A program made the translations under genes and the position numbers. A stretch of 64,000 bases of DNA, taken from Macrococcoides bohemicum (GTDB lineage Bacteria > Bacillota > Bacilli > Staphylococcales > Staphylococcaceae). This document shows positions 46,728-48,142 of this stretch, piece after piece. The notes below the pieces were generated by a model, which saw only the letters and a list, made by a program, of their open reading frames with translations, ran no database searches and was not told where the DNA came from. The DNA is taken from NCBI RefSeq assembly GCF_003259675.1, contig NZ_PZJG01000005.1, positions 62,001 to 126,000 of the forward strand, read 5' to 3'. Numbering within the stretch: the stretch's first letter is position 1; each line of letters starts with the position of its first letter.

Positions 46728-46759
46728 GCACTCACAAATAATTGTGAGTGCTTTTTTTG
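46728..46759 (+). terminator. Terminator after infB
   Basis: GCACTCACAA (46728-46737) pairs perfectly with TTGTGAGTGC (46742-46751), followed by seven T. In related genomes infB and rbfA are often cotranscribed; here they are separated. Confidence 0.92.
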
Positions 46760-46957: not shown

Positions 46958-47854
46958 TTGTTTATAAAAACTGCCGTCAAACAACCACAGCTTGAATATT
47001 TAGAAGAAGTTCATGGACGTATACATATGCCTGAATCTGATAGACGAAAATATTTCAATTTAAAATTGGGTTTTGAAGGTGAAAAGAAGGTTTATAATTT
47101 TCTGAATCAATTTAAGCAAGGTGTTTGTATTTGGGATATTCGACTGGATATTTACGGAGAGATACAATTTGATTTCTTTGTCATAGTTAATGGTATTATT
47201 TTTATATTAGAAATAAAAAATTTTTACGGAAACTATACATATAAAGATGGCAACTTGAAAAGTGAAAGTGGTTATGTTTGTCGAGATGTATTTTCTCAGG
47301 CAAGTAATGAACGAGATAAATTTGAAGCGTTTTGTTATGAACAAAACATTCATTATAAAATTATTAATGAAGTCGTATTTGTTAACGATACTTTCAAAGT
47401 GATCAATGATGTGAAAGATATTAAATTCAATAATATGTCTGATATTGAAAATCTAGCTAAATATATGTGTAGTTTCAATATTACCGATGAGGACATTGCG
47501 ATTGGTGAATTGATTGTTAAACATCATATTGAGCAATCGAAAAATGAACAGAAATATTTTTATCCTTATGACAAAATGACTCGTGGGTTAAAGTGCCCAG
47601 AATGTCATAGATTTCTGGAAGTGAATCGCACTGTGAAGAAAAAAGTAAAATGCAGATGCGGGCATGTAATGGCTAAATCTGAAGCTATACTAGAATCATT
47701 TAGAAAAATCGAAATGCTGAAAAGGGACAGTGTCAGTGTGAGTGAAGTAGGTGAGTGGGTTGACTGTAATCCATCAGGCATTCGAAAATTATTAGGAGAA
47801 AATTTTATTAAAATAGGTACAAATAAGAACAGGAAATATAAAACTATTAAATAA
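46958..47854 (+). CDS. NERD (nuclease-related) domain protein with C-terminal zinc ribbon
   Basis: A 298-residue accessory protein. GFEGEKKVYNFL (38-49), a D72 in QFDFFVI, and EIK (85-87) in IFILEIKNFYG match the NERD fold, a relative of Holliday-junction resolvase/restriction endonuclease-like nucleases. A putative zinc ribbon follows (CPEC near 213 and CRCGH near 233), then a possible helix-turn-helix near 255-290 (VSEVGEWVDCNPSGIRKLL). Translation starts at TTG with GAGGTGA upstream. It sits between infB and rbfA, followed within 10 bases by a palindromic repeat array. Function is unknown; DNA or RNA cleavage is inferred only from the fold. Confidence 0.8.
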   Translation: MFIKTAVKQPQLEYLEEVHGRIHMPESDRRKYFNLKLGFEGEKKVYNFLNQFKQGVCIWDIRLDIYGEIQFDFFVIVNGIIFILEIKNFYGNYTYKDGNLKSESGYVCRDVFSQASNERDKFEAFCYEQNIHYKIINEVVFVNDTFKVINDVKDIKFNNMSDIENLAKYMCSFNITDEDIAIGELIVKHHIEQSKNEQKYFYPYDKMTRGLKCPECHRFLEVNRTVKKKVKCRCGHVMAKSEAILESFRKIEMLKRDSVSVSEVGEWVDCNPSGIRKLLGENFIKIGTNKNRKYKTIK

Positions 47855-47861
47855 TAAGTCA

Positions 47862-48079
47862 GATGCTAGCGACAAACCAGAAATATCGCTAGCAACCTGT
47901 AATATAATGTTGGAATTGTATAGATGCTAGCGACAAACCGGAAATATCGCTAGCAACCTGTAATATAATGTTGGAATTGTATAGATGCTAGCGACAAACC
48001 GGAAATATCGCTAGCAACTGTCAAAATAATGTTGGAATTGTATAGATGCTAGCGACAAACCGGAAATATCGCTAGCACC
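47862..48079. repeat. Four-copy tandem array of 61-bp units, each with a 31-bp palindromic hairpin
   Basis: Each copy contains TGCTAGCGA, a 13-base loop (CAAACCGGAAATA), and the exact reverse complement TCGCTAGCA. The left arms start at 47864, 47925, 47986 and 48047, and the right arms end at 47894, 47955, 48016 and 48077, a constant 61-base period. The 30-base interval is identical between copies 1-2 and 2-3, and slightly diverged between 3-4. Copy 1 differs at one loop base (CCAG instead of CCGG). There is no T run after the hairpins, so they are not ordinary terminators. The intervals are repeated rather than unique, so this is not a CRISPR. It fills the gap between the NERD gene and rbfA (47855-48179) up to the rbfA promoter. 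Confidence 0.92.
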
Positions 48080-48113: not shown

Positions 48114-48142
48114 TTGACATCAACTGGCTACCCACGTATAAT
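48114..48142 (+). promoter_or_regulatory. Perfect consensus sigma-A promoter for rbfA
   Basis: TTGACA (48114-48119), a 17-base spacer, and TATAAT (48137-48142): both hexamers are perfect. It lies about 38 bases before rbfA, directly downstream of the palindromic array, and should drive rbfA-truB independently of infB. Confidence 0.85.

Follow-up and report, generated by a model that had tools for sequence, protein, structure and literature searches.

The array between infB and rbfA

Why should a tandem array of hairpins with an exact period lie among housekeeping genes, directly behind a gene for a NERD-domain protein, and does the one depend on the other? In the 64 kb stretch of M. bohemicum DNA analysed here (the window), the NERD gene and its array form a unit flanked by infB, rbfA and truB, housekeeping genes whose names are our reading of their translations. 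The unit and its boundaries are as follows.

46728..46758, + strand: intrinsic terminator of infB (GCACTCAC..GTGAGTGC followed by T7), upstream boundary of the NERD-array unit
46958..47854, + strand: NERD-domain protein, 298 aa (PF08378, E 7e-9)
47864..47894, + strand: palindrome unit 1, loop CAAACCAGAAATA
47895..47924, + strand: 30-base interval 1
47925..47955, + strand: palindrome unit 2, loop CAAACCGGAAATA
47956..47985, + strand: 30-base interval 2, same sequence as interval 1
47986..48016, + strand: palindrome unit 3
48017..48046, + strand: 30-base interval 3, 5' end differs
48047..48077, + strand: palindrome unit 4
48114..48142, + strand: rbfA promoter, downstream boundary (TTGACA at 48114-48119, 17 bp, TATAAT at 48137-48142; consensus)

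The array starts 9 bp past the NERD stop codon, with no terminator between them, and ends 36 bp ahead of the -35 box of rbfA. At the same infB-rbfA site a sister species (G002) has just the terminator and the rbfA promoter. In another part of this neighbourhood, the rbfA-truB gap of one genome (G001:C1:965711-970513) measures ~3.8 kb and the two genes are adjacent in other species, which suggests another insertion.

All four palindromes have the form TGCTAGCGA-N13-TCGCTAGCA (31 bp each, 9-bp arms, 13-base loop) and follow one another with a period of exactly 61 bp. The loop of unit 1 shows a single-base difference (CCAGAAA vs CCGGAAA), and two of the three intervals are identical, the third deviating at its 5' end. 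TRF, run on the whole window, gave the array a score of 404 with 97% matches and found it to be the sole array of its kind there; such palindromes appeared in none of 100 shuffles, where none are expected. Thus the preliminary description of this locus proved right as to the four units and their exact period, the near-identical intervals, the NERD-domain gene in front and the consensus promoter behind. Each palindrome, folded as single-stranded DNA, gives a much better fold than shuffled versions of itself (z ~ -4.2; 0/200 as good), and the sense and antisense strands of the array fold equally well as DNA.

Could the array be a repeat of a known type, namely a CRISPR, a STAR element, a REP/RAYT element or a terminator? 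Its 31-bp palindromic repeat and 30-bp interval give it a CRISPR-like unit length, and STAR arrays, which are intergenic staphylococcal direct repeats, have themselves been called false CRISPRs (PMC5294841). However, the intervals are near-identical within the array rather than unique spacers, and no T run lies 3' of any unit as read in the sequence, so that the earlier exclusion of both CRISPR and terminators stands. GGCCC is absent from the units, which therefore do not carry the STAR consensus T(G/A/T)TGTTG(G/T)GGCCC(C/A) (PMC3532100), and the Y1 transposase (PF01797) was found in G008 only, every genome with GCTAGCGA arrays lacking it. Each type's defining features being absent, all four identities are refuted for the window array, and we give this explanation hardly any credence. 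Hairpins with a AGCTAGCGAC stem, which resemble the array palindromes but carry T runs, were likewise rejected as array members; they represent one conserved bidirectional intrinsic terminator found elsewhere, between convergent genes (L056 4060-4085; L051 4019; L053 3968).

NERD proteins and the arrays at their 3' ends

The window protein matches PF08378 with 36.6 bits against a cut-off of 22.1, and so do 29/29 homologs. It carries a PD-(D/E)xK-like site (E42, D72, E85, K87) and a CxxC...CxC zinc ribbon (C213, C216, C232, C234). E42, D72, D/E85, K87 and the zinc-ribbon cysteines are conserved in 52 homologs and in a 29-row alignment, the nuclease-site residues being retained in nearly all copies among the 52 proteins; this is the pattern expected of a PD-(D/E)xK site and marks the protein as a putative nuclease. 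Its C-terminal region is HTH-like and, as with the nuclease site and the zinc ribbon, kept in the family, with weak HTH matches in some homologs only, and weak transposase zinc-ribbon matches occur in some members. An AlphaFold model built from three sequences had a mean pLDDT of 37.5, too low for use, and its low-confidence secondary structure is by itself no proof of the fold. A PDB profile search returned no meaningful match, PADLOC and NCBIfam gave just weak, scattered matches, and no NERD relatives were found on plasmids, phages or viral contigs.

Several NERD paralogs are present in each of the nine Macrococcus species sampled (one genome per species). Searching for the inner core GAYAAA-N4-5-AATATC uncovered 61-bp arrays with other arms, several of them directly beside other NERD paralogs, and ~50 NERD loci were collected from the nine species for an array survey. 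Nearly all paralogs have a palindrome array directly 3', each with its own arm sequence, the classes including GGCCGATA, GTCCGATA, TTTCCGGAT, GCGGCTGTA, GATGTTGATA, AAGTACCAGA, GTGGCGAAC, CTGCCGAAC, TTGGCTCAT, GTGGCACGT and others. The period is mostly 61-62 bp, in a few cases 51 or 84 bp. Even the four species without GCTAGCGA arrays have NERD-palindrome pairs of other classes.

Across 338 kb, comprising the ~50 NERD loci and the window, TRF arrays (period 40-130, score >=100) lay at a NERD 3' end in 32/32 cases and nowhere else; 26 of them start <=200 bp past the script-placed NERD stop and 6 in the last codons. Where a NERD locus lacks a TRF array, one or two palindromes spaced 51-61 bp are mostly still present. 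A test for exact palindromes, combined with a terminator filter, scored 27/47 NERD loci vs 14/135 genes (p 4e-10), and is conservative because the filter discards A-rich units. The 338-kb count replaces an earlier control in which 17/188 other ORFs had an array, a control that appears confounded because those ORFs sit in NERD-array loci. At 21 loci checked, the 600 bp ahead of the NERD gene held no cognate arm.

It might be argued that these are ordinary minisatellites, in which slippage expands palindromes near gene ends and the link to NERD genes comes as a side effect; tandem arrays do typically have homogenised copies and degenerate units at their edges. Yet all 32 arrays lie at NERD genes, and the 200-bp zones 3' of these genes make up 3% of the sequence.

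The survey also gave some observations on individual loci. In at least three species a distant NERD clade (L201-L204) has downstream arrays with a 51-bp period, their palindrome being weaker. At L197, the one clear NERD pseudogene that has an array, the palindrome has degenerated as well, which favours a tie between gene and repeat, while the array is still homogeneous. Against such a tie, the NERD gene L164 of M. goetzii has an internal stop, yet an intact array.

Co-variation and spread of the palindromes

When 52 NERD proteins are placed in a tree, every supported clade proves to carry an arm class of its own. Loci of the same class have common upstream flanks and are thus positional orthologs, inherited vertically; one locus retains the NERD gene and palindrome in 9/9 species, with diverged arms. 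Where stem pairs differ between related palindromes, 17/20 have changed on both sides, all from Watson-Crick to Watson-Crick, and 3 on one side only; the palindrome pairs for this comparison were hand-chosen (the first sequence of pair 'c' is of the G005 type, L198). Such compensatory change keeps the palindromicity, which together with a class that tracks the gene phylogeny argues against simple minisatellites, an explanation that we consider highly improbable. Overall, NERD identity correlates with arm similarity (Mantel r 0.51, p 0.0002), but between different genomic loci significance is lost (r 0.19, p 0.15); common descent may thus explain some of the co-variation, and recognition is suggested rather than demonstrated. 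Also against it, the NERD proteins at L177 and L178 are 98% identical, yet their inner arms differ.

The window array is not a one-off, as the search of its own and related genomes proposed in the preliminary description made clear. M. bohemicum has a second GCTAGCGA array with the same arms, another loop and interval and the same 61 bp period, flanked by a DJ-1/PfpI-like gene and an sgtB-like glycosyltransferase gene. GCTAGCGA arrays occur in 5/9 Macrococcus species, both at the window site and at others that lack a NERD gene (ileS-lspA, rplT-cbiX, DJ1-sgtB, beside panE and others), and are absent from the other 4/9 even when two mismatches are allowed. They are confined to the five species with a GCTAGCGA-class NERD gene, just as orphan GGCCGATA arrays are found in species carrying a GGCCGATA-class NERD. 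A search of 99 more Staphylococcaceae genomes, from four other genera, found no GCTAGCGA-type array, and 76 kb of one sister-genus genome (G009), a small sample, held neither NERD gene nor array. Beyond what had been described, the element is genus-wide, falls into many sequence classes and also occupies NERD-free sites.

GCTAGCGA arrays reach 12 units, all holding the 61 bp period without indels. Their arms are nearly invariant, with an outer pair of T-A or A-T, the loop and interval are array-specific, and the edge units are degenerate. They sit between the terminator of the upstream gene and the promoter of the downstream gene, and array-less sister species have those two only. Trans copies come and go between species, and within a species their intervals resemble those of the cis array (0.67 for G003, 0.63 for G005, vs 0.29 and 0.32 when shuffled), which indicates that whole units were copied.

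A few hairpins at these sites are of another kind. The DJ1-sgtB gap holds an array in four sister species; in G003 (L079/L083) it holds one hairpin, GTGACATGACTGATAAACGCGAATATCAGTCACTTCAC, whose inner core is the same but whose arms are different, and in G002 (L076) a different long inverted repeat (GTTCACGTGACGACC...). A lone hairpin with the same core, TTGCGATAAAGAWGGATATCGCAA, lies between the ileS terminator and the first array unit in L040 and L046. Draft assemblies break in or near arrays (L176 end and L213 end in G007; L042 start; G003:C8 start), so true copy numbers may be higher.

Perhaps the arrays act as RNA, transcribed with the NERD gene or antisense to it, the hairpin RNA guiding or inhibiting the nuclease or being cut by it, in the manner of a type III toxin-antitoxin system. 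Compensatory stem changes would suit this, and so would the uninterrupted passage from the NERD stop into the window array. The strand with the A-rich loop of GCTAGCGA arrays is co-directional with the flanking genes; however, the GTGGCGAAC and GTGCCGAAC classes have a T-rich loop on the sense strand, opposite to most classes. Changes are also biased to antisense-strand G.T (94 vs 31 cells), a bias that is only suggestive as to the choice of strand and comes mostly from one innermost pair. Moreover, trans arrays often lie beyond a terminator, and Rfam returned no family at gathering score, with chance miRNA matches below that score on the window array and none on five other arrays. We therefore regard an RNA system as doubtful.

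Only slightly better placed, and still unlikely to our mind, is a pure DNA-binding platform, with the NERD protein, or some other HTH protein, sitting on phased palindromes to regulate genes or organise the DNA, and with no cutting or mobilising. The periods (51, 61-62 and 84 bp) come close to whole numbers of turns of the helix, from which we infer a fit with binding on one face of the DNA, and such a role would agree with the exact period, the HTH-like C-terminus of the NERD protein, the conservation of arms within a class and the sites adjoining promoters. Yet the arrays are downstream and none of the 21 loci checked has a cognate arm in the 600 bp before the gene, making simple autoregulation unlikely, and a platform would account poorly for the retention of the nuclease-site residues or the gain and loss of trans copies between species.

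A candidate partnership of nuclease and repeat

The linkage of arrays to NERD genes, the class-specific palindromes, the 61-62-bp period in most classes, the kept palindromicity and the spread to NERD-free sites are all observed. Our preferred reading, to which we give a probability of roughly 55%, is that the window array belongs, as its cognate repeat, to the NERD gene just upstream, one of many genus-wide pairs of a NERD gene and a palindrome array in which the NERD protein would recognise the palindrome and drive its amplification. That NERD proteins recognise and cleave the palindrome is suggested by the sequences. The protein, with its nuclease domain, zinc ribbon and HTH-like C-terminus, may recognise its own palindrome either in duplex form or as a hairpin, extruded or single-stranded, and may nick or cut it, or promote replication slippage there. 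Recombinational repair between neighbouring units could then expand and homogenise the array in place while keeping the exact period; now and then, copies of whole 61-bp units would enter intergenic gaps elsewhere that have a terminator on one side and a promoter on the other, and gene and repeat would co-evolve at a fixed locus. The suggestion in the preliminary description that the palindrome was amplified in tandem, possibly under the action of the NERD protein, has thus gained strong circumstantial support from the paralog arrays in nine genomes and from the way in which class tracks the NERD tree, while the action of the protein itself stays at the level of inference.

If so, the palindromes are a likely substrate for a NERD-protein family of unknown function, and several gene-palindrome pairs in one genus provide material for tests of specificity. 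A partner nuclease would also be a testable model for the origin and movement of intergenic tandem repeats, such as STAR, in staphylococci and their relatives.

In type III toxin-antitoxin systems (ToxIN) a nuclease gene lies beside a short tandem repeat array. NERD arrays differ in lying downstream rather than upstream of the nuclease gene, in being paired with an unrelated protein family, and in having trans copies and an orientation that varies among classes. The STAR/SIRU repeats of Staphylococcus aureus, whose spread mechanism is unexplained, are likewise direct repeats that occupy intergenic sites at several loci and differ in copy number (PMC3532100), but have another consensus and no described NERD link. 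SmdA of S. aureus is a NERD-domain protein (PMC9040797), and with it the Macrococcus proteins have the NERD domain in common, but the papers found report no palindrome array for SmdA or other NERD-domain proteins. NERD goes unmentioned in the M. goetzii/epidermidis/bohemicus genome paper (PMC6008420), and no report of NERD with repeats was found in a partial coverage of the literature, which makes the novelty provisional.

The closest parallel is REP/RAYT, in which repeat and gene phylogenies match (PMC2817692). Here too the palindrome class tracks the phylogeny of the linked gene, trans copies are intergenic, and the cognate gene correlates with the presence of the repeat. The differences are a NERD (PD-(D/E)xK-like) protein instead of a Y1 HUH transposase, one-sided tandem arrays of direct repeats rather than two inverted REPs flanking the gene, and few arrays per genome in Macrococcus. 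A REP/RAYT-like (REPIN) partnership in which an unrelated nuclease replaces the Y1 transposase is most likely. For the broader proposal, a new nuclease-repeat partnership in which a NERD multigene family would have each member co-evolving with its own array and propagating it in cis and in trans, parallel to REP/RAYT and of independent origin, we see about even odds.
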